In this document: positions 45,626 through 58,790 of the stretch, in pieces
How the letters are laid out: every line of letters starts with the position of its first letter
How positions within the stretch are numbered: position 1 is the stretch's first letter
Origin: Shewanella sp. 10N.286.48.A6
GTDB lineage: Bacteria > Pseudomonadota > Gammaproteobacteria > Enterobacterales > Shewanellaceae
Reading direction: 5' to 3'
DNA length: 64,000 nucleotides
Assembly: GCF_002873135.1 (NCBI RefSeq)
Contig: NZ_MCVI01000011.1
Location: 39,690-103,689 of the forward strand
Position numbers and translations under genes: made by a program
The notes under the pieces: generated by a model
Databases searched by the model: none
What the model was told of the DNA's origin: nothing
Seen by the model: only the letters and a program-made list of their open reading frames with translations

Positions 45626-45973
45626 TTAATCGGTATTCATTTCAAGTTGCATTAACATCATCTGCTCACCATCTATTACCTGAGTATTGGTACTTAAACA
45701 TCTTGGGCAAACAATATTACATTCGGTTAATTCTGATTGCGTGTCACATTGGCGGCAGTGAATGATTAGCGCCTGTATATTCATATCCAGCATGGCGTTG
45801 TGGCAAATCCCTTCAAGTTTGAAAGTTTCAAACGCCGTGGCCAATAAACGTGGCTCGACGCCACTTAACACCCCAACTTTAATCTGTACTCTGATGATTT
45901 CATTAGCTTGATTTTGGGCCGCTAATTGCTCAATTTGCTCCAATAATGACATCACAATTGAATACTCATGCAT
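45626..45973 (-). CDS. hypA: hydrogenase nickel insertion protein HypA
   Basis: A 115-residue nickel metallochaperone that works with HypB to load nickel into the hydrogenase large subunit. It begins MHEYSIV, with His2 as nickel ligand, and has the zinc site CRQC...CPRC. The start at 45973 is chosen because the family begins MHE and because TAATG overlaps the hypE stop; AAGGA lies eight bases upstream. A longer in-frame start at 45979 is unlikely. Last of the hyp genes before the small His-rich gene. Confidence 0.93.
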   Translation of the reverse strand: MHEYSIVMSLLEQIEQLAAQNQANEIIRVQIKVGVLSGVEPRLLATAFETFKLEGICHNAMLDMNIQALIIHCRQCDTQSELTECNIVCPRCLSTNTQVIDGEQMMLMQLEMNTD

Positions 45974-46986
45974 TAGCAAATCCTTGGTAATAGCTCACCT
46001 TGGGGAACATCTAAATAGCGGCTACTGCCCCATGGTGTGGTTAATACTACTTTGCCAAGGTGTTGATTAGTCACATTGCCGATAATGCAGGCTTGATCGC
46101 AGTGGCAATATTGTTTCATGATAGTTAAAGCCTGCTCAGCTCTCTCCTGTGGCAGGGCCATAATAAAGGTGCCTTCATTTGCTAAATCAAAGGCTTCAAA
46201 ACCATAAAGTTCACACAGGCCTTGGACTTGTGGCGATATTGGAATTAATTTTTCATCGACTTCAATGCCAACAGCAGATGCATTGGCCCATTCATTTAAT
46301 ACCGCAGACAGGCCGCCGCGAGTGGCATCTCTCATGGCATGGATTTCGATATTCGCTGCAATGAGTTGCTCGACTATGGGCCAAAGAGTGGCGCAATCAC
46401 TGGTGAGTTCAGACTCTAAACATAAGCTATCACGTGCCATTAAAATGGCTGCTCCGTGCCTTCCAATGTCGCGGGATACGATAATAGCGTCACCTTGTTG
46501 CAGGTTTTTAACTGAAATACCGGGTTTTAAAATTCGGCCCACACCTGAGGTATTGATAAATATGCCGTCAGCGCAACCTTTAGGTACTACTTTAGTATCA
46601 CCACAGACAATACGTGCACCAGATTTATGTAATTCAGCGGCCATGCTTTGCACTATGGTATTCAGATCTTTAATGGCAAAGCCTTCTTCAATTATAAAGC
46701 TGCAGCTTAAATATTCTGGCTGCGCTGCCATCATGGCTAGATCGTTGACTGTGCCAGCAACGGCCAGTTTGCCGATATCACCACCAGCAAAAAATAAAGG
46801 CTCAACGGTAAAAGAGTCGGTAGTAAATGCACAATGGCCAGTTAAATTTAAATCCGCAGCATCTTCTTGAGACTCCAAAATTGGATTTGAAAAAGCTTTA
46901 AAGAACATATCAGTAATTAAACTGTTCATTTCTTTACCACCGCCGCCATGGCTTAACTGCACGTGTTGATATTTATTCGCTGGCAT
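45973..46986 (-). CDS. hypE: hydrogenase maturation protein HypE
   Basis: A 337-residue PurM-like ATPase that converts the carbamoyl group on its C-terminal Cys to cyanide for the active-site iron. The C terminus is LLPRIC, with the acceptor Cys last, as required. The N-terminal part has LSHGGGGKEMNSLI and AFTTDSFTVEPLFF, and VCGDTKVV follows. It overlaps hypD by 14 bases at its start and hypA by one base at its end. CAGGAG precedes the ATG. Confidence 0.95.
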   Translation of the reverse strand: MPANKYQHVQLSHGGGGKEMNSLITDMFFKAFSNPILESQEDAADLNLTGHCAFTTDSFTVEPLFFAGGDIGKLAVAGTVNDLAMMAAQPEYLSCSFIIEEGFAIKDLNTIVQSMAAELHKSGARIVCGDTKVVPKGCADGIFINTSGVGRILKPGISVKNLQQGDAIIVSRDIGRHGAAILMARDSLCLESELTSDCATLWPIVEQLIAANIEIHAMRDATRGGLSAVLNEWANASAVGIEVDEKLIPISPQVQGLCELYGFEAFDLANEGTFIMALPQERAEQALTIMKQYCHCDQACIIGNVTNQHLGKVVLTTPWGSSRYLDVPQGELLPRIC

Positions 46987-48100
46987 TCGTTACTCCTGTA
47001 TAACGATAATATGCATTGCAGGCACCTTCTGAGCTGACCATACAACTGCCCAATGGATTGTCTGGAGAGCAGCCTCTGCCAAAGACTTTGCAATCTTGTG
47101 GATTGGCGAGACCGCGCAAAATATCACCGCATTGACAGGCTTTGTGGTCATCAATTTCTACAGTGGGTAGCTGTTGTTTGAATATAATTTCGGCGTCGCG
47201 ATGGGCATACTGGGGTTTTAAGGTTAATGCTGATTTTGAAATCGGCCCTAAACCACGCCACCTAAATGATGCTCTTAGGGTTAAGTATTGGTCGATTAAT
47301 GCCTGCGCTGCTTGATTACCCTCGTAACTGACCGCGCGGCTGTATTGATTATCAAGCTTGGCAATATTTTGCTGTTTTTGTTTTACAATTCTAAGAATCG
47401 ATTCCATCACATCCACAGGTTCAAATCCCGCTACTACCACTGGTGTGTTGTAGTTATCTACAGCCGCTTGGTAAATTTTAGCGCCGCTAATCACGCTCAC
47501 ATGGGCAGGTCCTATAAAGGCATTTACTTTAGCTTGTGGGTTGGCCATCACGGCATCAATCGCTGGTGGCACTAGTACGTGGTTGATATGAAATAACAGA
47601 TTATTTATTTGCTGTTTTTCAGCTTGGTCAATTAACACGGCAGTCATTGGGGTTGATGTTTCAAAGCCGATGGCAAAAAAGATAATGGTTTTATCGGGAT
47701 TGTCTTTTGCGATACTAAGCGCATCCATAGGGTCGTATAAAGGCCGAATATCACAACCTTTAGCACGAAATTGAGCAAGGCTACCTTTTGAACCAGGCAC
47801 TCGGATCATATCGCCTAGGGTCAATAATATAACGTCATCAAGCTGTGCTAATGCAGCAGCATGGTCGATGCGCTCTTTTGGCATAATACACACAGGGCAG
47901 CCGGGTCCATGAATAAAATTGATGTTAACAGGCAGCAATTGCTTTAAACCATATTTCATTATGGTGTGGGTATGACCGCCGCATACTTCCATTATGTTAA
48001 TATCAGTATCTATCTGACTAGCATGTGAGTTTATCTCTTCTGCTAACGCTTTGATGGTGTCAGGATTGCGAAACTGTTGATATAGATCAGTGAGGATCAT
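46973..48100 (-). CDS. hypD: hydrogenase maturation protein HypD
   Basis: A 375-residue iron-sulfur scaffold on which the Fe(CN)2CO group is built with HypC. Conserved Cys motifs are EVCGGHTHTIMKYGL, GPGCPVCIMPKERID and, at the C terminus, GRGCSPDNPLGSCMVSSEGAC. The central GFETSTPMTA and FIGPAHVSVISG segments also match. It shares ATGA with the end of hypC (4-base overlap) and overlaps hypE, so the three are translationally coupled. Confidence 0.96.
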   Translation of the reverse strand: MILTDLYQQFRNPDTIKALAEEINSHASQIDTDINIMEVCGGHTHTIMKYGLKQLLPVNINFIHGPGCPVCIMPKERIDHAAALAQLDDVILLTLGDMIRVPGSKGSLAQFRAKGCDIRPLYDPMDALSIAKDNPDKTIIFFAIGFETSTPMTAVLIDQAEKQQINNLLFHINHVLVPPAIDAVMANPQAKVNAFIGPAHVSVISGAKIYQAAVDNYNTPVVVAGFEPVDVMESILRIVKQKQQNIAKLDNQYSRAVSYEGNQAAQALIDQYLTLRASFRWRGLGPISKSALTLKPQYAHRDAEIIFKQQLPTVEIDDHKACQCGDILRGLANPQDCKVFGRGCSPDNPLGSCMVSSEGACNAYYRYTGVTNASE

Positions 48101-48342
48101 AAATCATTTCCTTCATCATTAAGTTTATCAACAATCTCTTTATAGAGTTCCAAACTTAATTTGGCATCTTCTGTATCGATTTTATTCATCACAAATCCGA
48201 TATGGATCAGCACAAATTCGCCCACCTTTAATGGCTCTGTCATTAGGTGACTACTGACCCGGCGTTTAACCCCTAAGGTATCGACGGTGACACTAGTATC
48301 ATCGTGAACAGCGGTAATTTGAGAAGGCACTGATAAGCACAT
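48097..48342 (-). CDS. hypC: hydrogenase assembly chaperone HypC
   Basis: An 81-residue OB-fold chaperone that carries the iron group from HypD to the large subunit. It begins MCLSVPSQI; Cys2, exposed after removal of Met1, is the functional ligand, which is why 48342 is the start and not an in-frame ATG five codons earlier. VLIHIGFVMNKID is the second family motif. It starts one base after the hypB stop and overlaps hypD by four bases. Confidence 0.94.
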   Translation of the reverse strand: MCLSVPSQITAVHDDTSVTVDTLGVKRRVSSHLMTEPLKVGEFVLIHIGFVMNKIDTEDAKLSLELYKEIVDKLNDEGNDL

Positions 48343-48343
48343 A

Positions 48344-49063
48344 TTATTGCGCTCCAATTGCGCTGTTTATCCAATCAGCCACTTGGTTAAGAGATTGTGG
48401 ATCTTTGACTGAAATGGGTAATAAGGTCACATCAGGATTGAGTTTTTTAAGTTGCTGCTCGCATTCGGTTAAGGAAAAGTCAAAATGCTCGGCTAAATCC
48501 ATTTTGGTTATGAGTACCAAATCTGCACGGCGAAACATCACCGGGTACTTTTCAATTTTATCGTCACCTTCAGGCACAGATAACAGCACGATATTTTTGT
48601 GGGTGCCGACATCGTAACTAGCGGGGCAAACAAGATTGCCAACGTTTTCTACGAAGCAGACATCAATAGGTTTAAGGTCAATATGGTGCAGCGCTTGATG
48701 CACCATAAAGGCATCTAAGTGACAGGCTGAGCCGGTTTGAATTTGATAAGCACTAATGCCTTTAGCGATTAAGCGGTCAGCATCACGAGAGGTTTCTAAG
48801 TCGCCTTCAATGACCGCGAATTTAGCCATTAAATGAGTGGGTAAATATTCCAGTAAAGTGGTTTTACCGCTACCTGGGCTACTCATTAAGTTAAAAGCCA
48901 TGACGTTATTGGCTTTAAAATGCGCACGGTTATGCTGGGCTTCATGATCATTCTTATCTAATATTTTATGAATAACAGATAAGGTCTTAGTATCATTAAG
49001 CTGCGGGTTAGAGTGTAGGCTATGTTGATGATCTGTAATTGAACATCCGCAATCTTGGCACAT
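48344..49063 (-). CDS. hypB: hydrogenase nickel incorporation GTPase HypB
   Basis: A 239-residue GTPase delivering nickel with HypA. The N-terminal MCQDCGC is the high-affinity metal site, followed by a short His-containing linker (about 8-35) rather than a long His tract. GTPase motifs are NLMSSPGSGKTTLLEY, EGDLET, FVENVGNLVCPASYD and LITKMDL; GSACHLDA holds the dimer-interface metal ligands. It lies between hypF (102 bases away) and hypC (one base). Confidence 0.95.
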   Translation of the reverse strand: MCQDCGCSITDHQHSLHSNPQLNDTKTLSVIHKILDKNDHEAQHNRAHFKANNVMAFNLMSSPGSGKTTLLEYLPTHLMAKFAVIEGDLETSRDADRLIAKGISAYQIQTGSACHLDAFMVHQALHHIDLKPIDVCFVENVGNLVCPASYDVGTHKNIVLLSVPEGDDKIEKYPVMFRRADLVLITKMDLAEHFDFSLTECEQQLKKLNPDVTLLPISVKDPQSLNQVADWINSAIGAQ

Positions 49064-49165: not shown

Positions 49166-51544
49166 TTAATTGGCTATTTGTGTTGTTTGTTGTTGTAAAT
49201 AGGCAAACCATAATTGCCCTAAAGAGATGCCGGCATCGTTTATAGGGATAAGTTTACTGGGTAGTATTTGCCGCTGCTTTAACGCTTGCTGACATTGTGT
49301 TAGTAGTAATTTATTTTGAAACACACCGCCGCTAAACACTAAAGCATATTCAGGGTACTGATTAGCAACATCAGCGACAGCTCGGCTTAAACTCGCTGTG
49401 AATGCAAAACATAATTGTTCGGTCGATGGCGGCTGTTTAGCCGTGATAAGCCCGATAACTTGTTTGATTAATCCGCTGCTATCCCAAACTTTAACTGCTG
49501 AAGCAGCTGCTGTTGGCTCTGGAGACAATGCCAGTAATTGCTGCTCAGTGTTGGCAGTATTTGTTGTATTAGATGCTATTGATTGCTTGAGCCAGTTATT
49601 AGCACAAGTTTCAATTAACATGCCTGCTTGGGCTTCAAACTGATTCGTTTCAATAAGATTAAGCGCAACAGCAATGGCATCAAACAGCCGTCCTATTGAG
49701 CGTGATTCAATGCAAGCACTATTGTTAAGCCACATACGATGTAAATTATCTAAGGTATGAGCAGGCATTGTTTGAATTGCCTCGATGGGCAGTTTTTTTA
49801 TTTGAGCAAGGCTGAAGTGCTCGAATAACAAGGCTAATAAAATCCTTACGGGATGTTTAATCGCTTGCTCGCCACCAATTAACTTAAATGACTTCAAGTG
49901 TGCGACACTGCGATAATTAATGCCATCAAGCAACATGCACTCACTGCCCCAAAGGCTGTCATCATCACCTAAGCCTGTGCCATCAAAACTAAATCCTAAT
50001 ACTGGTTTTTGGTAGTTATTGATCGCCAGCACACTAAGGATATGCGCATGGTGATGTTGAACCTGTGAAATCGGGACATTGTGTTGATTATTAGCCCATT
50101 GGCTAGATGCATAATCAGGGTGCTTATCACTTATTATTTTCTTAGGGTTAAAACGATACAGTCGCTTAAATGTGTTTAAGGTGTGTTCAAATAACTGGTT
50201 AGTTTCGAGGTTATACAAGTCACCAATATGCGGGCTAATAAAGGCATGTTGTTTAAAAGCAAAGCATTGAGTATTTTTTTGCTGCGCCCCGACCCCAAGA
50301 ATTGGATATTTAATGGCGCTGGGTAAGGCAATACTTAATGGCGCATAGCCTCTTGCTAATCGAATAACCTGAATTTGCTCGTTAATTACTTGAACAACGC
50401 TATCATCACAAGGGTTTACAATGGCTCTGTTGTGGTCAACGAGGCCATCAATCACATGGCCTAGTTGCGACATAATCTCGTTGGCGTCGGTAATAATGGG
50501 TAAGCCTGAAAGATTTGCGCTGGTGGCAACAATAGGTTTGTTAAAGGCATTAAGCAGCAGATGATGCATGGGAGTGTAGGGCAGAAACAGTCCTAATTTA
50601 TCTATGTCGGGTGCAATTAACTTGCTGATAAAATTATCAATATTGGCGTGTTTAGCCATTAAGGTGATAGGTTTTTCAGCACTACTTAAGAGTTGCCACT
50701 CTGTTTTTGTGCCAGTAACGAGTTGTTTGGCTTGCTCGATATTCGCTGCCATAACGGCAAAGGGCTTTGCTGGGCGCTTTTTACGTGATCTTAGCTTTTT
50801 AATGGCCTCATCATTAGTGGCATCACAAATAATATGAAAGCCCCCTAGACCTTTAACTGCTAAAATTTTGCCATTATTTAACGCGCTGATGATGGCTGAA
50901 AACACTTGCTGTTGATCAGCAATAACCTCAGTTATCTGCCCATGGGTAAGCATGTCAAAACGTAACTTGGGGCCGCATTTAGGGCAGCTCACTGGCTGAG
51001 CATGGTAGCGTCGATTTAAGGGATCTTCATAGGCTTTTCGGCAGTCCTCACACATAGCAAAATTAGCCATTGAGGTAAGATGGCGATCATAGGGAAGTTG
51101 CTTAACAATGCTGTATCTTGGCCCGCAATTGGTGCAATTTGTAAAAGGGTATTGGTAATGACGATTATTTGGATCTGCGATGTCAGCTAAGCAATCTGTG
51201 CAGCTACTTTTATCGGCGGAAATTGACACTATGGCTTGTTGATTAGACTGACTTTGGCTGATTGTAAAGTCGGCTAGTCTTGTATCGATTCGTTCTTCTA
51301 CCACATTCAGTTTATCGATTCTGGCTAATGGCGGTGGATTAACTCTTAACTGATGGATAACATGATTGATATCAGTATTTAATCCTTGTAGATGAATGCA
51401 TACACCTTGCTCATTATTTAGCACACTGCCGAGCAAATTAGACTGAGTGGCTAATTGATAAACGTAAGGGCGAAAACCAACCCCTTGGACTATGCCGTTT
51501 ATATTGAGTTTTACCTGTTGAAGATAGGCTTGGTGCAGTCCCAT
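49166..51544 (-). CDS. hypF: carbamoyltransferase HypF
   Basis: A 792-residue enzyme that makes the thiocarboxamide precursor of the CN ligands from carbamoyl phosphate. Domains in order: acylphosphatase (about 10-95, NGIVQGVGFRPYVYQLA), HypF zinc fingers (about 110-190, CTDCLADI...CTNCGP and CEDCRKAYEDP...CPKCGP), YrdC-like (about 205-385, ILAVKGLGGFHIICDA and KKRPAKPFAVM), and Kae1-like (about 395-790, VQHHHAHILSVL, FSFDGTGLGDDD, LVFSGGVFQNKLLL). All key motifs are intact. Its start is four bases after the stop of a degenerate HypF-like gene. Confidence 0.95.
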   Translation of the reverse strand: MGLHQAYLQQVKLNINGIVQGVGFRPYVYQLATQSNLLGSVLNNEQGVCIHLQGLNTDINHVIHQLRVNPPPLARIDKLNVVEERIDTRLADFTISQSQSNQQAIVSISADKSSCTDCLADIADPNNRHYQYPFTNCTNCGPRYSIVKQLPYDRHLTSMANFAMCEDCRKAYEDPLNRRYHAQPVSCPKCGPKLRFDMLTHGQITEVIADQQQVFSAIISALNNGKILAVKGLGGFHIICDATNDEAIKKLRSRKKRPAKPFAVMAANIEQAKQLVTGTKTEWQLLSSAEKPITLMAKHANIDNFISKLIAPDIDKLGLFLPYTPMHHLLLNAFNKPIVATSANLSGLPIITDANEIMSQLGHVIDGLVDHNRAIVNPCDDSVVQVINEQIQVIRLARGYAPLSIALPSAIKYPILGVGAQQKNTQCFAFKQHAFISPHIGDLYNLETNQLFEHTLNTFKRLYRFNPKKIISDKHPDYASSQWANNQHNVPISQVQHHHAHILSVLAINNYQKPVLGFSFDGTGLGDDDSLWGSECMLLDGINYRSVAHLKSFKLIGGEQAIKHPVRILLALLFEHFSLAQIKKLPIEAIQTMPAHTLDNLHRMWLNNSACIESRSIGRLFDAIAVALNLIETNQFEAQAGMLIETCANNWLKQSIASNTTNTANTEQQLLALSPEPTAAASAVKVWDSSGLIKQVIGLITAKQPPSTEQLCFAFTASLSRAVADVANQYPEYALVFSGGVFQNKLLLTQCQQALKQRQILPSKLIPINDAGISLGQLWFAYLQQQTTQIAN

Positions 51545-51548
51545 AGGC

Positions 51549-53525
51549 TTACCTTAACCCACGTCTTTTGGCGAGATACAAACCACCAATGGCAATGTTG
51601 GCGCCATCGAGATCTAATTGATGGTTTACCACTAGAGGGTAATTCTTTTGTAGCCGCATACATAGGCGCTCAGCAAGTACGCTATAGACTAAATCGTTGC
51701 CTGCTAACACCACGGCATCAATTCCTTGTTGCTGCTCCAGATGATCAAGCCAGTTACTAAGATAATCAGCCAGTGAATCAAAAAAGCCAAAAGCTAAAAT
51801 GGCGGGATTGGCGCCAGCTAATTTAAAACTCATTAAGCTGGCAAAGGTACGGCGCCAATTAATGCTCCTATAGCCGTTTTCTGAACAAAGTGGAAAATCA
51901 ATTCTAGGGGCATTATTACCATGATACTGCTGCGCCAGTGCATGAAACGCATCTGCTTTCGCGTCAATACTGGTTAATTGATTTAAGGCCTCATCATCTA
52001 AAATCAACATGGCAGCTAGGCCAATAAAATGTTGAATATTATCACTAGTTTTATCCAGTGTGGTTAGTGCTAATTGATGGATTTGTTGTGGAAATGCTAG
52101 GGTAAACTTAGCGAGTACTTTTGATTCTTCGTGCTGTAATTGCGCAATAATATCAGCGCCATGTTGCTCAAAAGTCGGTAATCGTAAAAACTGGGCAATT
52201 TTTTGTTGTTTATTTTGGGTAATAACTACACTGGGGTTGTCATGGCTAAAATAGAGTGTGGCACTGGTGATGGATTGTTTGTCTGTTGCTGCTAGCGTTT
52301 GAGTCGACAGCATTCGATTGGCAATTTGACTGATCACAGCTTCAGACAAATTCAGCAAACCTGCGTGCATGGCGCAGCTAGCCGCGTCTATTCCAGTCAC
52401 TGTTAATTCAGTCACAGCGGTGTTATCAGCTGCTGACATACGGCAATGGATCTGTTTGTTGTTCCAGCTGGCTTCATAGTGTTTGTATTGAGCAACATCA
52501 TGTAATGGGCTGGCGCCATTAATGGAGAATTGGTGATTGCTGGCGATTTCTACCCAAGCATTATTGATGCGAGTTACGCTTGGCTTAGCTATGGACTTAG
52601 TTAAAGGCTTGTGTAAGTCGTTATGAGTATCAGCGCTAACTGAATCGTTTGTATCAATATAGACCCAATCAATACCAATAGTGTTTAGCTGATCAGCCAG
52701 TGCCATAAGTAAACGACTGTCAGCAAAGCTCACTTGATAGTATGGATCAGTAAGTGTTGGCTGGACTTTACACTTAGCTTGATGTTTAGCAGTAGTAACA
52801 CCTGAAAAGACTGCTGCATCAGCTGACATCAGTCTGAGTCGCGGTTTTTCTAAACTGGATAAGGCGAGGGTATGGTACTGCTGCACTGCAAAATACTTAC
52901 TTAAATGCTGGGGGTTACAGATTAAAATATGTTGTTGGCCAGCGTTTTTGGCAAAAGGTTGTAAGCTCAAACTGAAATTTGAACTTGGATCCGAACTTGA
53001 TACAGAACTTAATTCAGAACTTAAATAAGTGCTGCCACTGCTGCTTAAACTAATCTTGGTGTCATTTTTTAACCGCGCTGCAATTGCAATAAGATCTTGC
53101 GGCGCCATAGATTGCTCTAAGGTGCTTATACGCTCATGGCCGTGACAATGGGGACAAACTAGATCAAGCTTTAAAAAGTTAGCATCTGCGGCATTAACCA
53201 TCTGCGGTTGGCATTCACTACAGTAACTGATGTTGAGCTCAGCATGGGCTAGCGGCTTTTGGCTGCCTTTACGGGTTTTGATGACACCGACTTCAGCAGA
53301 GCATAACCAGATTGAATATAAAAATTTGGCGGCTATCTCATCGGCAAGGGCGGCGAGTTGTGGCTCTGTGGCCTCAACTTCTAAAAAATAGCGATTGTTG
53401 TTAAAACCCGCGCTAAAGTCAAAGCGGGTATCGGCTATATATTGATTACAAAGCTGCGCATAAAAGGCCACTGGGCGCTGGCAGGTAAAATTAAAACTGA
53501 CTTTATGCATAGGGCTGACATCCAC
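51549..53525 (-). CDS. degenerate HypF-like paralogue
   Basis: A 658-residue protein with no standard name known to me. It aligns in outline with the neighbouring HypF but lacks its catalytic motifs. There is no VQGVGFRP acylphosphatase signature. One zinc ribbon remains (Cys102, Cys105, Cys124, Cys127). A YrdC-like stretch can be traced (LEKPRLRLMSADA parallels AEKPITLMAKHA in HypF). The Kae1-like metal motif HHHAH is missing, while the C terminus AVVLAGNDLVYSVLAERL...ANIAIGGLYLA parallels LVFSGGVFQNKLLL...AGISLGQLWFA. A Ser-rich repeat lies near 158-186. It overlaps hyaD by 23 bases; a start at 53510 is also possible. It may be a pseudoenzyme partner in maturation. Confidence 0.6.
   Translation of the reverse strand: MDVSPMHKVSFNFTCQRPVAFYAQLCNQYIADTRFDFSAGFNNNRYFLEVEATEPQLAALADEIAAKFLYSIWLCSAEVGVIKTRKGSQKPLAHAELNISYCSECQPQMVNAADANFLKLDLVCPHCHGHERISTLEQSMAPQDLIAIAARLKNDTKISLSSSGSTYLSSELSSVSSSDPSSNFSLSLQPFAKNAGQQHILICNPQHLSKYFAVQQYHTLALSSLEKPRLRLMSADAAVFSGVTTAKHQAKCKVQPTLTDPYYQVSFADSRLLMALADQLNTIGIDWVYIDTNDSVSADTHNDLHKPLTKSIAKPSVTRINNAWVEIASNHQFSINGASPLHDVAQYKHYEASWNNKQIHCRMSAADNTAVTELTVTGIDAASCAMHAGLLNLSEAVISQIANRMLSTQTLAATDKQSITSATLYFSHDNPSVVITQNKQQKIAQFLRLPTFEQHGADIIAQLQHEESKVLAKFTLAFPQQIHQLALTTLDKTSDNIQHFIGLAAMLILDDEALNQLTSIDAKADAFHALAQQYHGNNAPRIDFPLCSENGYRSINWRRTFASLMSFKLAGANPAILAFGFFDSLADYLSNWLDHLEQQQGIDAVVLAGNDLVYSVLAERLCMRLQKNYPLVVNHQLDLDGANIAIGGLYLAKRRGLR
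52981..53028. repeat. in-frame 12-bp tandem repeat, four units, in the HypF-like gene
   Basis: Four units beginning GAACTT (52981, 52993, 53005, 53017) encode, on the minus strand, the tetrapeptides SSEL, SSVS, SSDP and SSNF. The unit length is a multiple of three, so copy changes would keep the frame. Confidence 0.75.
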
Positions 53526-54057
53526 GTTTATAGGAATCAGGGATTAAGTCGTTAATATTAACACTGTGTTTTTTTGTATAGCTAAAACCTGCTTTTTCAA
53601 GGTGTGCCAGTAAGGCTTTTTCCATCGTCGGCACCGCAGCTTGTATTGACTCAGTTAAGCCTAATGTCATCGGCTCGATGACTGTCGGCGTAACTCCAAT
53701 CACGTGAGTATTGGGTCTATCACCGACCATGTCCATCATGATCAGGGTTTGCAGCATCTCAACCTCATGGGCACTGCCTTGCCAATCAATTTCAGGTGGC
53801 GCTTGATCAAAATTAAATGAATACACCTCTCCGGGTTTTACCCCTGGACTGTTTACGGTATCCACCACAATTAAGTTGTCATATTGACAAAGAATAGGGA
53901 TAAGTCCTTGAGCAAGGGTGCCACCATCTAAAATATCGAGTTGATGGTTTGGCTGATGGAAAGTGTATTTTTCATCGATATAATTAACAAAATGTACGCC
54001 GATGCCTTCATCAGCGTACAAAACGTTTCCTATACCTATTAGTAAGCTAGTAGACAA
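53503..54057 (-). CDS. hyaD: hydrogenase large-subunit maturation protease HyaD
   Basis: A 184-residue HyaD/HybD-type endopeptidase that trims the C-terminal extension of HyaB after nickel is inserted. Nickel-binding residues are seen in GIGNVLYADEGIGVH (Glu17), LDGGTLAQGL region with VVDTV, and SAHEVEML (His). HyaB here carries a 19-residue extension after the DPCxxCxxH motif, a suitable substrate. It starts three bases after hyaC and its 3' end overlaps the HypF-like gene. Confidence 0.92.
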   Translation of the reverse strand: MSTSLLIGIGNVLYADEGIGVHFVNYIDEKYTFHQPNHQLDILDGGTLAQGLIPILCQYDNLIVVDTVNSPGVKPGEVYSFNFDQAPPEIDWQGSAHEVEMLQTLIMMDMVGDRPNTHVIGVTPTVIEPMTLGLTESIQAAVPTMEKALLAHLEKAGFSYTKKHSVNINDLIPDSYKRGCQPYA

Positions 54058-54060
54058 AGG

Positions 54061-54726
54061 CTAGTGATCCTTATGGTAGTCATATCCGGAGACGATAGAG
54101 TCAACAGAGTTATGCTTAAAGCGTATGCCTGACCAAACCGCCATATAGATATGAATAACCACAAATATAATGAAAGCCCAGGTGACTATGTGATGCCAAA
54201 TTCGTACTTGTGCTAACCCGCCCATTAAGGCCGTAAACCAAGCTGAAACTTCCCATATAGCGCCACCTAACCCTTGATGATAAACATTGGCATAAAGCAC
54301 CAAGCCAGTGATACACATGAATAAAGCCGCAAATGATATGGCAACGTATGTCACAAACTGCAAAGGTCCGTATACGCCAGCTTTATCTAAGTGTCCCATC
54401 CAGATATAGGATTTAATTTGTGCTATCCAGCTCTTCAGGCTTAAAACATCTCTGATTGAACGTCGTTCAATGGCGCTTTTAGCAAAAAAGAACAAGTAAA
54501 AACGTACTATGGTGATACTGGTAAGTACAAAGCCAAACACGAGATGTACAAAGCGGATCCCGCCTTGAACCAAGACATCAGAAGATGCGGGCGCCACCAA
54601 AAATGGCCATGAAATGTAAAAACCAGTTACCACTAACATCAAAATAGACAGTGCTCTAAGCCAATGGAATATCCGTATGGCAGGTGAGAAGATGAGTTCT
54701 CTGCGATGGGTTGCAATTTGAGTCAT
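54061..54726 (-). CDS. hyaC: Ni/Fe-hydrogenase b-type cytochrome HyaC
   Basis: A 221-residue di-heme cytochrome b that anchors the hydrogenase and passes electrons to the quinone pool. Four membrane helices (about 18-40, 58-82, 122-148 and 175-203) carry His residues in IRIFHWLRAL, GIRFVHLVFG, VRIWHHIVTW and FVVIHIYMAVW, which supply the heme ligands. It lies between hyaB (29 bases) and hyaD (3 bases). Confidence 0.93.
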   Translation of the reverse strand: MTQIATHRRELIFSPAIRIFHWLRALSILMLVVTGFYISWPFLVAPASSDVLVQGGIRFVHLVFGFVLTSITIVRFYLFFFAKSAIERRSIRDVLSLKSWIAQIKSYIWMGHLDKAGVYGPLQFVTYVAISFAALFMCITGLVLYANVYHQGLGGAIWEVSAWFTALMGGLAQVRIWHHIVTWAFIIFVVIHIYMAVWSGIRFKHNSVDSIVSGYDYHKDH

Positions 54727-54755: not shown

Positions 54756-56459
54756 CTAAAACCCGTTAGGATCGATGCGGAATTCACCTAAATCATTACC
54801 TTTATAGTCCATTACGTGTACCGCGCAGGCCATACATGGATCAAAGGAGTGAATAATTCGAATGACTTCCAGTGGTTTGGTTGGATCTTCAAGTTCAAGC
54901 CCAATCAGTGATGCTTCATAAGGGCCAACTTTACCGTCAGCATCTACAGGGCCAGAATTCCACGTGGTCGGAACAATAGCTTGGTAATTTTCTATCTTAC
55001 CGCCCTTAATTCTGATCCAGTGACTGAGCATTCCACGCGGCGCTTCAATCATCGCATGGCCGATGTAATCGCGATCTGAGTCTATTTCTGGTGTCACATA
55101 GGTAGATTCATCCGATTGCATATTGGTTAACATGGCATCAAAGGTTTTTAAGCCTTCTTCTGCCACAATCACGGTTTGCAGCATGCGCGCCGCGGTGCGG
55201 CCTAAGGTGGTGAATAATGCTTCTATAGGCAGGCCTGTTGCGGCGAGCAACCCATTAACACTATCAACAACAATCTTGTTGCCACGGGCATAGTTCACCA
55301 GTAAACAGGCTAACGGCCCAACTTCTACGGGTTCGCCCTGATATCGTGGGGATTTAACCCAAGAGTATTTTCCATCACCATCGACAGTCGGTAATTTGCC
55401 ATACACGGTATCGCGCTCAACAAATCCGGTGTAATTTGGAATCGTTGTGCCGTCATAGGGGTGCTGGGCGGTTTTTGCGTCATACCATGAGTGGGTGACA
55501 TCTTCTTTTATGGCATCGGGATCTAAATCGCTCACCCCGGCTAAATCTCCATTCATTATCACGCCTTGCTCAAACAGATATTGACCATCAGCTAAGATAA
55601 AGTCATCGGTGGCTAAAAAGTTTTTAACACTGACGCCGCCTAACACACTTGGCTCGCCACCAAAGGCGGCAGCTGCCATAACGATGTCGGCTTTATAAGC
55701 GCGGATAATAAAGTCATGGACGATAGCGTGTTTTTGTTTCCACTCTTGTAAACGTGCAGGACTTAGCATGTCTCTAACAGAGGTAACACCGCCAACTACA
55801 AGGGATTGCGGATGCGGCGACTTGCCGCCAAATATTGCTAGCATTTCAGCTGCTACACGCTGAACTTCTAACGCTTTAAGGTAATGGGATAGGGCAATGA
55901 GGTTTTGCTCTGGCGTGAACTTGTAGGTTTTATTGCCCCAATAGGCATTAGCAAAAGGCCCAAGCTTTCCGGTATCAACCAAGCCTTTGACTCTTTGCTG
56001 TACGGCGCGTAATTCACCTTCGCCAGTGGCGATAGGGTTTTCGGTGTATTTATTGGCTTCTTGGGCGGCTAATGCCGGATCGGCACTTAAGGCTGACACC
56101 ACATCAACCCAATCTAAACCATGTAAATGATAGAAGTGCACAATGTGATCATGCACATACAAAGAGGTTTGCATTAACGAGCGTAAGTACTTTGCGTTGA
56201 GCGGGATTTTAACCCCTAAGGCATTTTCAACCGCTTCAGTACCGCAGCGATAATGAGAATAGGTACATACCCCACAAATACGTTGCACAATTAGGCCGAC
56301 ATCCATAGGAGTACGGCCTTTTAAAATGACTTCAATACCACGCCAAAGGGTAGAAGATGACCAGGCCTTTTGAATAACATTATTTTCATCAACTTCAACT
56401 TCAACACGTAAATGGCCTTCGATACGGGTGATAGGATCGATAACGACTCGTTTACTCAT
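54756..56459 (-). CDS. hyaB: [NiFe] hydrogenase large subunit HyaB
   Basis: A 567-residue catalytic subunit with the NiFe site. The two ligand motifs are RICGVCTYSHY (Cys62, Cys65) and DPCMACAVH (Cys542, Cys545, His548). The 19 residues after His548 form the extension removed by HyaD. Other group 1 segments include TRIEGHLRVEV and GEPSVLGGVSVKNF. It works in the periplasm, exported with HyaA. It is three bases after hyaA and leads into hyaC. Confidence 0.97.
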   Translation of the reverse strand: MSKRVVIDPITRIEGHLRVEVEVDENNVIQKAWSSSTLWRGIEVILKGRTPMDVGLIVQRICGVCTYSHYRCGTEAVENALGVKIPLNAKYLRSLMQTSLYVHDHIVHFYHLHGLDWVDVVSALSADPALAAQEANKYTENPIATGEGELRAVQQRVKGLVDTGKLGPFANAYWGNKTYKFTPEQNLIALSHYLKALEVQRVAAEMLAIFGGKSPHPQSLVVGGVTSVRDMLSPARLQEWKQKHAIVHDFIIRAYKADIVMAAAAFGGEPSVLGGVSVKNFLATDDFILADGQYLFEQGVIMNGDLAGVSDLDPDAIKEDVTHSWYDAKTAQHPYDGTTIPNYTGFVERDTVYGKLPTVDGDGKYSWVKSPRYQGEPVEVGPLACLLVNYARGNKIVVDSVNGLLAATGLPIEALFTTLGRTAARMLQTVIVAEEGLKTFDAMLTNMQSDESTYVTPEIDSDRDYIGHAMIEAPRGMLSHWIRIKGGKIENYQAIVPTTWNSGPVDADGKVGPYEASLIGLELEDPTKPLEVIRIIHSFDPCMACAVHVMDYKGNDLGEFRIDPNGF

Positions 56460-56462
56460 GGT

Positions 56463-57599
56463 TTATTCCTCTAGCGGCTTAGCAAAAAGACTAGTTACTG
56501 CGTGAGCACCTATGCCCACAACGGTCGCACCAAGAATGACGGTACCAATGGTATCGGCAGTGGCATCAATACCGTGGAGCAACTGTCTGCCTAATGGCTT
56601 TTCGAAATCCGCCATATCATCCCAAAAATTAGGTTCAGCGCAGCCAATACAGCCATGACCTGCAAGTACTGGCCAACTGGTATGATGATTAAAGCGTTCA
56701 GTGGGGCAGTTGTTGTAGGTATAAGGGCCTTTACAGCCCATTTTGTATAGGCAGTAGCCATCTTTAGCACCTTGATCGCCAAAGGTTTCTACAAATTCGC
56801 CAGCGTCAAAACGACCACGACGTTCACAGTTATCATGCACTCTAGCGCCGTATGCCCATTTAGGGCGATTAAACATATCTAACGCGGGCAGTTTTCCGAA
56901 CATGATGAAATACATCAAGGTACCGACAATGTTCTTTTCACTAGGAGGACAACCGCCTAAATTAATCACCGGTTTATCAATAACCTCTTGCACACCTTTT
57001 GCACCAGTAGGGTTGGGCGCTGCAGCTTGTACACCGCCAAATGCGGCGCAAGTTCCAACAGAAATAATTGCAGCCGCCCCAGCAGCTGCTTCTTTTACTA
57101 TCTGCATTCCGGTATGGCCTTTACAGCCGACCGTTAAATAAGTGCCATTATTAGCCGTTGGTACAGCACCCTCTACCGCTAATAAGTAATTACCTTTATA
57201 TGCCTCCATAGCATGCTCAAGGTTTTCTTCCGCTTGCCAACCGGCTGCAGCCATCAATGTTTCATGATATTCCAAAGAAATATGATCAAAGATGAGGCTG
57301 TCTAAATTAGGGCTGTCGGTTCTGATAAGGGATTCTGAACAACCGGTACATTCGGCCATATGCAGCCAAATCAGTGGTACTCGATCAGCAAGCTCAGCGG
57401 CTTCGGCAACTAGATTGGTGAAAGGCAGGGGCAATGCGAGTAGTGCGGTAACAGATGCACTCCAAGTCATAAACTCACGTCGGCTAATGCCATTTTTTAT
57501 TAATTTATCTTTTAGGCTAACGCTGTGACGTGGTTGTAACTGCTGCAATTGCGCAATTCGTGTTTTACATCGTTGATATAAAGCTGCATGTGTATCCAT
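56463..57599 (-). CDS. hyaA: [NiFe] hydrogenase small subunit HyaA
   Basis: A 378-residue iron-sulfur subunit. A twin-arginine signal SRREFMTWSASVTALLAL (about 39-56) directs export of the HyaAB complex. Proximal cluster ligands are in AECTGCSES (Cys84, Cys87), VGTCAAFGG and GGCPPSEKN; medial and distal ligands are in HDNCERRGRF, GYCLYKMGCKGPYTYNNCP and GHGCIGCAEPNFWDD. The extra Cys residues of oxygen-tolerant enzymes are Gly here. A C-terminal membrane helix (about 345-370) contacts HyaC. It is the first gene of the unit, with AAGG seven bases before the ATG and an FNR-type promoter upstream. Confidence 0.97.
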   Translation of the reverse strand: MDTHAALYQRCKTRIAQLQQLQPRHSVSLKDKLIKNGISRREFMTWSASVTALLALPLPFTNLVAEAAELADRVPLIWLHMAECTGCSESLIRTDSPNLDSLIFDHISLEYHETLMAAAGWQAEENLEHAMEAYKGNYLLAVEGAVPTANNGTYLTVGCKGHTGMQIVKEAAAGAAAIISVGTCAAFGGVQAAAPNPTGAKGVQEVIDKPVINLGGCPPSEKNIVGTLMYFIMFGKLPALDMFNRPKWAYGARVHDNCERRGRFDAGEFVETFGDQGAKDGYCLYKMGCKGPYTYNNCPTERFNHHTSWPVLAGHGCIGCAEPNFWDDMADFEKPLGRQLLHGIDATADTIGTVILGATVVGIGAHAVTSLFAKPLEE

Positions 57600-57953: not shown

Positions 57954-58790
57954 TTAACTGCCAGTCAATTGTTTCAATACCTGTGGCGGTACTAAGATTG
58001 ATAATTTCGCTAAACATGCATTAGTACTTGGATCGCGATATTTAATTTTAAATTGACATAATGTGTATAAGCGTTGCGGCTCATTACTGACTTACTTTCG
58101 GGGTTAAATCGCGATTAAAGCCATATTGGCCAGCGGCTGTGTTTGATTTTTTGTCCATTTGATATGCTCACTGGTGGGGCCGTGACAGGTTTCACAGGCC
58201 ATGTTGATTTCTGACCAACTACTGTCAAAGCTATTGTCTGTTACGTTATAGTTTTTTTTGACATTGGTTGAGTGACAATCAGCGCACATGTAGTTCCAGT
58301 TTTGGCCTTTATTAGTCCAAAAGAACTCGTCGTAAGGATCCATTTCAGGATACAAATAAAACCAGCGCTGTCCGCCTTCATCTTTACTACGGCTATCCCA
58401 AGCAAAAGGGAGTAGTTGTATCGCACCATTTTCAAATTCAACCATATATTGCTGTAGAGGTTCATAACCAAAGGTATAGCTAATTTTATAGTCGTTAAAC
58501 TTGCCATCTGGGCCTTTAATATTGACCCAGTACTCACTTCCTCTCATAAAAAAGCGTGAGACTTCACCTTGGTAGTCAAATTGTTGATCGGTAAAGTTTG
58601 CTAGAACGATATCTGCAGTAGTCCGCCCCATAGACATATCATGATGCGAGCCTTGCCAATCACTGTATTGTTGCTGGTGGCATTCAACACAGGTTTGGCT
58701 GCCACTAAATTCAGCTGCTGGTGTAGTCGCATTCACAAAAAAGGTCGTTAAGCTGAAGAAGGTAATACTGATTAGCTGATTGAATTTAAT
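57954..58790 (-). pseudogene. decayed multiheme cytochrome c gene
   Basis: The main fragment (58104-58736) encodes about 210 residues with three CxxCH heme sites (CVECH, CADCH, CETCH) and the start of a larger TPR-type cytochrome. Upstream in frame, codons from 58790 encode a clear signal peptide (KFNQLISITFFSLTTFFVNA), but the expected start codon is ATT and a stop lies four codons before it; only a GTG inside the signal peptide remains. At the 3' end the frame closes early, while a shifted frame continues as GFNRDLTPKVSQ, and a third frame (to 57954) holds a plausible C-terminal remnant. This suggests start loss, frameshift and internal deletion. Confidence 0.6.

Follow-up and report, generated by a model that had tools for sequence, protein, structure and literature searches.

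The [NiFe] hydrogenase operon carried by this window, the whole 64,000-nucleotide stretch of Shewanella DNA, poses a question: why is a second relative of hypF, one without the catalytic motifs, kept between the hydrogenase structural genes and an intact hypF? We favor, with a probability of roughly 0.55, the reading that its product is a non-catalytic adaptor, derived from HypF, that would serve one class of hydrogenase. The gene is called HydE-like here for reasons of position and homology given below; the HydE meant is the accessory protein of [NiFe] hydrogenases and not the radical-SAM HydE of [FeFe] hydrogenases. With this reading, what had been a loosely described accessory gene yields a precise hypothesis, open to testing, on how one particular hydrogenase draws on a shared cofactor factory, and Shewanella is a tractable laboratory organism for such tests.

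The operon runs hyaA-hyaB-hyaC-hyaD-(HydE-like gene)-hypF-hypB-hypC-hypD-hypE-hypA, with the small hyp genes of the window named by recognition rather than by family search (Table 1). The original prediction had described an open frame at 51549-53525 that overlaps hyaD and stops four bases short of hypF, and all of this holds: it is encoded on the minus strand, its ATG start gives an 8-nt overlap with the stop of hyaD (ATGCATAA), and the ATG of hypF follows its stop codon after a gap of 4 nt. The 658-residue product first assigned to it is what translation from a GTG at 53525 yields. The alignment, however, makes the ATG at 53510 the likelier start, which shortens the protein to 653 aa, because the Met column for this codon is invariant in 27 of the 27 rows of our Shewanella-only profile (A1), rows that were cut at the nearest ATG, a treatment that itself bears on the invariance. 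The closest named relative among the matches listed comes from Shewanella sp. UCD-KL21 (89% in the best segment).

Table 1. Coordinates, in the window, of the hydrogenase operon and of the parts of the HydE-like gene.
Feature	Coordinates	Strand	Remarks
HydE-like HypF paralogue	51549..53510	minus	653 aa from ATG (658 aa if GTG at 53525)
Zinc ribbon CX2C...CX2C, residues 97-122, equivalent to the first HypF finger	53145..53222	minus	four Cys in 27/27 rows of A1 and 16/16 rows of A5
Degenerate YrdC-like segment ALSSLEKP, residues 216-223	52842..52865	minus	aligned to the HypF segment ending RPI
Kae1-like C-terminal lobe (Pfam HypF_C_2)	51585..51938	minus	most constrained large part
hyaA, hydrogenase small subunit	56463..57599	minus	tblastn matches at related loci
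hyaB, [NiFe] hydrogenase large subunit	54756..56459	minus	
hyaC, cytochrome b subunit	54061..54726	minus	agrees with the gene annotated as cytochrome b in L073 and L074
hyaD, maturation protease	53503..54057	minus	overlaps the HydE-like gene; matches the annotated HyaD/HybD of L073 and L074
hypF, intact	49166..51544	minus	every domain present
hypB, hypC, hypD, hypE, hypA, downstream of hypF	45626..49063	minus	sequences recognized by eye; same order in L096

A single Shewanella protein reaches HypF just through its C-terminal ~120 residues. HypF_C_2 is the sole Pfam match of the window protein taken alone (E 4.4e-8, residues 530-647, above the cut-off), no NCBIfam model matches it, TIGR00143 included, and PDB sequences gave no convincing match (a single one, at E 0.2). 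The Shewanella-only profile likewise finds the C-terminal lobe only when compared with a 10-row HypF profile (E 1.1e-7, and 5e-7 with our own hhalign settings), and it barely matches the HypF of the window as a single sequence (E 0.02). Profile A5, which combines 16 family members, 2 of them from Campylobacterota, matched the 10-row HypF profile over 556 columns at E 8.8e-15 with the settings of the comparison tool and over 602-622 columns at E 8e-25 with our own, against E values of 0.11-0.75 for 10 column shuffles and 0.17 for the reversed profile. A further profile, A2, reached the HypF crystal structure 3vth (E 9.8e-12), the best stretch spanning the acylphosphatase, zinc and YrdC parts and a weak second stretch falling in the C-terminal lobe.

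The full-length assignment is obtained because the two Campylobacterota rows serve as a bridge. Against TIGR00143, the hypF model with a cut-off of 466 bits, these two members score 86 and 83 bits (E 1.5e-24 and 1.5e-23) and two other Shewanella members ~12 bits, so that the family stays far below that cut-off or, as in the window, has no match at all; both Campylobacterota members pass the cut-off of zf-HYPF, and with HypF_C_2 they score 16 and 22 bits, below the cut-off of 27. Sub-threshold matches to ROS_MUCR and to other zinc-ribbon models were disregarded. A structure predicted from the window and L031 sequences has a mean pLDDT of 31.5, too low for a fold assignment, and although the model starts with beta-alpha-beta-beta-alpha-beta, the element order of an acylphosphatase, it does so at pLDDT 29-48, which is no evidence of fold. 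The profile comparisons bear out the ancestry that had been read from the layout of the protein: the HydE-like gene is a diverged paralogue of hypF, sharing descent with it along its full length and keeping the order acylphosphatase-like, zinc finger, YrdC-like, Kae1-like.

What the paralogue has lost are catalytic motifs. In HypF, as its literature describes, VQGVGFRP and an Asn are catalytic, HHHAH concerns metal, and NDGG contributes an Asp. Read off the A5-HypF alignment over its 16 family rows, VQGVGFRP, the catalytic Asn of the acylphosphatase and the HHHAH motif of the Kae1-like domain are present in 0/16, and no member has the whole T-S-x-N segment of YrdC (the T occurs in one, the N in one). 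In the column aligned to the Asp of NDGG none of the 16 has an Asp, but 10 have one a column away, so that an alignment shift of one residue would supply it. The Asp of FDGTG and the YrdC lysine (KGLGGFH) are kept in the two Campylobacterota members only. Of the eight zinc cysteines, the first four occur in every row and the other four in 2/16, both from Campylobacterota, leaving 14 rows without them; in the Shewanella members the second zinc finger is gone and the middle part is highly variable. The losses noted at first, of VQGVGFRP, of two zinc Cys pairs and of HHHAH, were described correctly.

The two Campylobacterota members are 641-aa 'hypothetical proteins' encoded on plasmids of Sulfurovum mangrovi and Sulfurimonas paralvinellae, and Campylobacterota were covered through plasmids only. 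With the window protein as query, the plasmids gave no match at E 1e-3; a shorter orthologue, searched at E up to 10, matched Sulfurovum at E 0.4, a match then backed by gene position and by profile via the Sulfurimonas relative, whose protein A1 matches at E 9e-14 over 361 columns. In Sulfurovum mangrovi the genes for large subunit, cytochrome b and protease come first, then the 641-aa gene, then three small genes that include an acylphosphatase-hypF. In Sulfurimonas paralvinellae the order is small-large-cytochrome b-(641 aa)-hypF, the protease genes sitting behind hypF and not before the 641-aa gene. In Shewanella, hyaD is the next matched gene upstream of the HydE-like gene in the window and in 15/15 operons fetched.

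Wolinella, like Helicobacter pylori, has a hydABCDE operon. In H. pylori these are genes hp0631 to hp0635, according to PMC4992972; PMC7695850 has hydE mutants losing hydrogenase activity and describes the function as unknown. The H. pylori defect is also stated not to be remedied by nickel. The position of HydE is the one that the Campylobacterota homologues occupy, and we therefore file the Shewanella gene as HydE: most likely, to judge from sequence and gene order, it represents in Shewanella the HydE family that belongs to uptake hydrogenase operons of the hydABCDE type. The original prediction knew of no published function, which was right in that the function is described as unknown and too pessimistic in that the gene sits at the position of one with a mutant phenotype. 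Since it most likely belongs to a known, if poorly understood, family, the gene is not categorically new. It shares with the hydE genes of H. pylori and Wolinella the position directly after the small-large-cytochrome b(-protease) genes, and the Shewanella members are marked by their missing second zinc finger and variable middle; orthology with H. pylori HydE, drawn from position and a chain of homology, is held with good but not final confidence.

What appears to be new is the HypF ancestry and the independence of HydE from the linkage and lineage of hypF. That the HydE family looks derived from HypF appears, from these sequence comparisons, to be reported here for the first time: no statement that the NiFe HydE descends from HypF was found in the parts of the open-licence PMC full text that could be consulted (PMC7695850, PMC6155014, PMC12727194, PMC4794192, PMC5566340, PMC2262068, PMC7784907, PMC5557546, PMC4992972 and PMC10454058), which is not proof of absence, and the same portions of that literature likewise yielded no mention of a separation of HydE from hypF. 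Two further observations concern the plasmid loci. A second and smaller hydrogenase gene pair lies behind a TetR-type regulator directly upstream of the hyd operon on both Campylobacterota plasmids (L073:3970-6164 and L074:4447-6628). The large subunit on a Sulfobacillus acidophilus plasmid (L075) is 50% identical to that of the window, as close as the Campylobacterota ones, and no HydE is annotated in that stretch.

E. coli possesses hydrogenase-specific chaperones, HyaE and HybE, and its hyaE follows hyaD. The main rival of the adaptor reading is that HydE is a factor of this kind, a small-subunit or Tat chaperone acting late in assembly or in membrane localization and off the Hyp pathway. 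HydE does directly follow hyaD, has its gene among the structural genes of a single hydrogenase and close to the protease, and stays with hyaABCD; PMC4992972, moreover, credits HydD and HydE with localizing the complex to the membrane. At the hydD/hyaD position, however, the annotation here gives maturation proteases, so that this phrase looks loose; the window protein has no Pfam match to a family of the HyaE/HybE type, and ancestry from HypF would point to surfaces made for Hyp proteins. We regard a late assembly role as unlikely, though still the strongest of the alternatives.

Across Shewanella, the family occurs in 108 of 129 genomes and hyaB in the identical 108, broken copies counted. 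HypF passes its cut-off in 105 of the genomes; G475, G494 and G514 hold pieces below it, and the 21 Shewanella genomes lacking hyaB have weak HypF matches only. As all 108 genomes with hyaB also have hypF, co-occurrence alone does not tell hyaB from hypF as the partner of HydE. Outside the genus, a HydE-like gene was found in G735, from another genus of the same family (genus and family of the genomes surveyed being assigned by kinship with the window and with L031, a Shewanella locus). Beyond Shewanella and G735 no further convincing member appeared when 369 genomes from the class and 398 from the phylum were scanned. G113, G126 and G717 gave weak matches (E 2e-4 to 8e-4) that we read as HypF, the open frames there measuring 836, 816 and 779 aa. 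With the window protein alone as query, the genome contigs listed one related locus, L031, and none of 32 pattern matches on viral contigs was confirmed as a family member.

Five genomes (G005 at locus L089, G447 at L090, and G434, G451 and G467) carry two large-subunit genes, ~4 kb apart, but just one HydE-like gene, and in L089 and L090 hyaA and hyaC are doubled as well. Broken copies of the HydE-like gene occur in G023, G485 and G514 and of hyaB in G438, G001, G475 and G023, and the reading frames of hya, hyd and hyp genes are interrupted at L084 (G514), L088 (G475), L087 (G001), L086 (G438), L083 (G485) and L085 (G023). In G514 and G475 several adjacent genes are broken at once, and for this reason the broken copies are probably assembly errors or recent decay, the frame breaks being in part assembly errors.

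Gene position is more informative than co-occurrence. In most operons hypF is close by: of 15 that were fetched, a set picked for odd cases, 12 have hypF immediately next or with one gene between, and 27 of 28 genomes have it inside the flank examined, the exception being G022, where hypF is on a different contig from hyaABCD-hydE. In G449 and G488, hyaABCD-hydE stands in a 14-kb stretch where none of hypA-F is matched, and each genome has its one full hypF ~400 kb away. In a HypF tree of 22 tips, moreover, the sole HypF of G449 is sister, with support 1.00, to the second HypF of G437, a genome where an additional hydrogenase cluster brings another full hypF but HydE remains single. G735 (L091) presents an apparent hypF replacement: its HyaB is 78% identical to that of the window and its HypF only 38%, this HypF falls outside the clade of Shewanella and Sulfurimonas (split support 1.00), hypC stands between HydE and hypF, and HydE is retained. 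While HypF has changed, HydE has thus stayed with the structural genes. The second hydrogenase clusters of G437 (L097, L098) and G449 (L099, L100) have their own hyp genes and no HydE; that of G437 looks formate-hydrogenlyase-like by eye.

These arrangements bear directly on the proposal that HydE is an obligate partner of HypF. TsaB is a non-catalytic paralogue of TsaD and its fixed partner, and by analogy HydE, also a dead Kae1-superfamily paralogue kept beside an active one, might form a heterodimer with HypF; the frequent adjacency of the two genes, their paralogy and the strong constraint on the Kae1-like lobe would all suit such a pairing. HydE persists, however, with unlinked hypF genes in G449, G488 and G022 and with one of another lineage in G735; in G437 the second cluster, which includes a hypF of its own, lacks HydE, and the HypF of E. 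coli works without any HydE. No fixed pairing of the TsaB kind is apparent, and we consider an obligate partnership improbable, somewhat more so than a late assembly role. The suggestion in the original prediction of a HypF partner is weakened, although a HydE able to bind any HypF would be compatible with the data. Persistence across unlinked and other-lineage hypF genes instead fits an adaptor or chaperone dedicated to one hydrogenase better than a dimer in which HydE and HypF are obligate, co-evolved partners.

We envision the adaptor as follows. A copy of HypF would have become HydE when its catalytic motifs were lost, those of the acylphosphatase, of the nucleotide site in YrdC and of the metal site HHHAH. 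The order of the folds would have been kept, together with one or two zinc ribbons and, at the C terminus, the Kae1-like lobe. Because the catalytic motifs are lost, HydE should make no carbamoyl-adenylate. The surfaces inherited from HypF may still engage the Hyp machinery, with HypE or the HypC-HypD complex as candidate partners, and HydE could in this way direct cofactor insertion, or a later assembly step, to the HyaB/HyaA precursor. We suggest more tentatively, and with clearly less confidence than we attach to the adaptor as a whole, that HydE is a hydrogenase-specific step of [NiFe] maturation by which the common Hyp pathway recognizes one class of large subunit, whichever HypF is present. 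Pseudoenzymes often regulate their active paralogue, and HydE might accordingly be imagined to regulate hydrogenase gene expression or carbamoyl transfer; we think this quite improbable, given that no regulatory family matches above its cut-off and that HydE tracks the structural genes rather than HypF.

The HydE-like gene is under purifying selection and is not decaying, and the original prediction had argued for a selected role from its placement. The 61 loci used supplied 47 family genes and 54 hypF segments, each counted once if identical, and we left out pairs whose synonymous difference fell outside 0.05-0.5. The median dN/dS of the HydE-like gene is 0.098 (30 pairs, range 0.038-0.197), close to the 0.106 of hypF (39 pairs), and in the 9 pairs common to both genes it exceeds that of hypF in 4. 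Regionally, the lowest values belong to the Kae1-like C terminus (0.077), the zinc ribbon (0.079) and the YrdC-like part (0.088). That HydE is an expressed but useless duplicate of hypF in decay is strongly disfavored and very improbable: its catalytic motifs are gone and it diverges faster than HypF (~31-42% against 51-69% identity to the window at other Shewanella loci, a comparison over the loci of 28 genomes without L031 and the broken L024 and, for HypF, over the part held), but its dN/dS is low, it occupies the same 108 genomes as hyaB, and it has homologues in another phylum.

The pair formed by the window and L031, which lies outside the 30, shows weaker constraint, with a dN/dS of 0.276 for the HydE-like gene against 0.126 for hypF. 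The two also differ upstream of hyaA, where positions 57957-58790 of the window hold the remnant of a gene that by eye is of the multihaem-type cytochrome/TPR kind; the intact 753-aa copy in L031 matches the window at residues 1-227 and 709-753 only.
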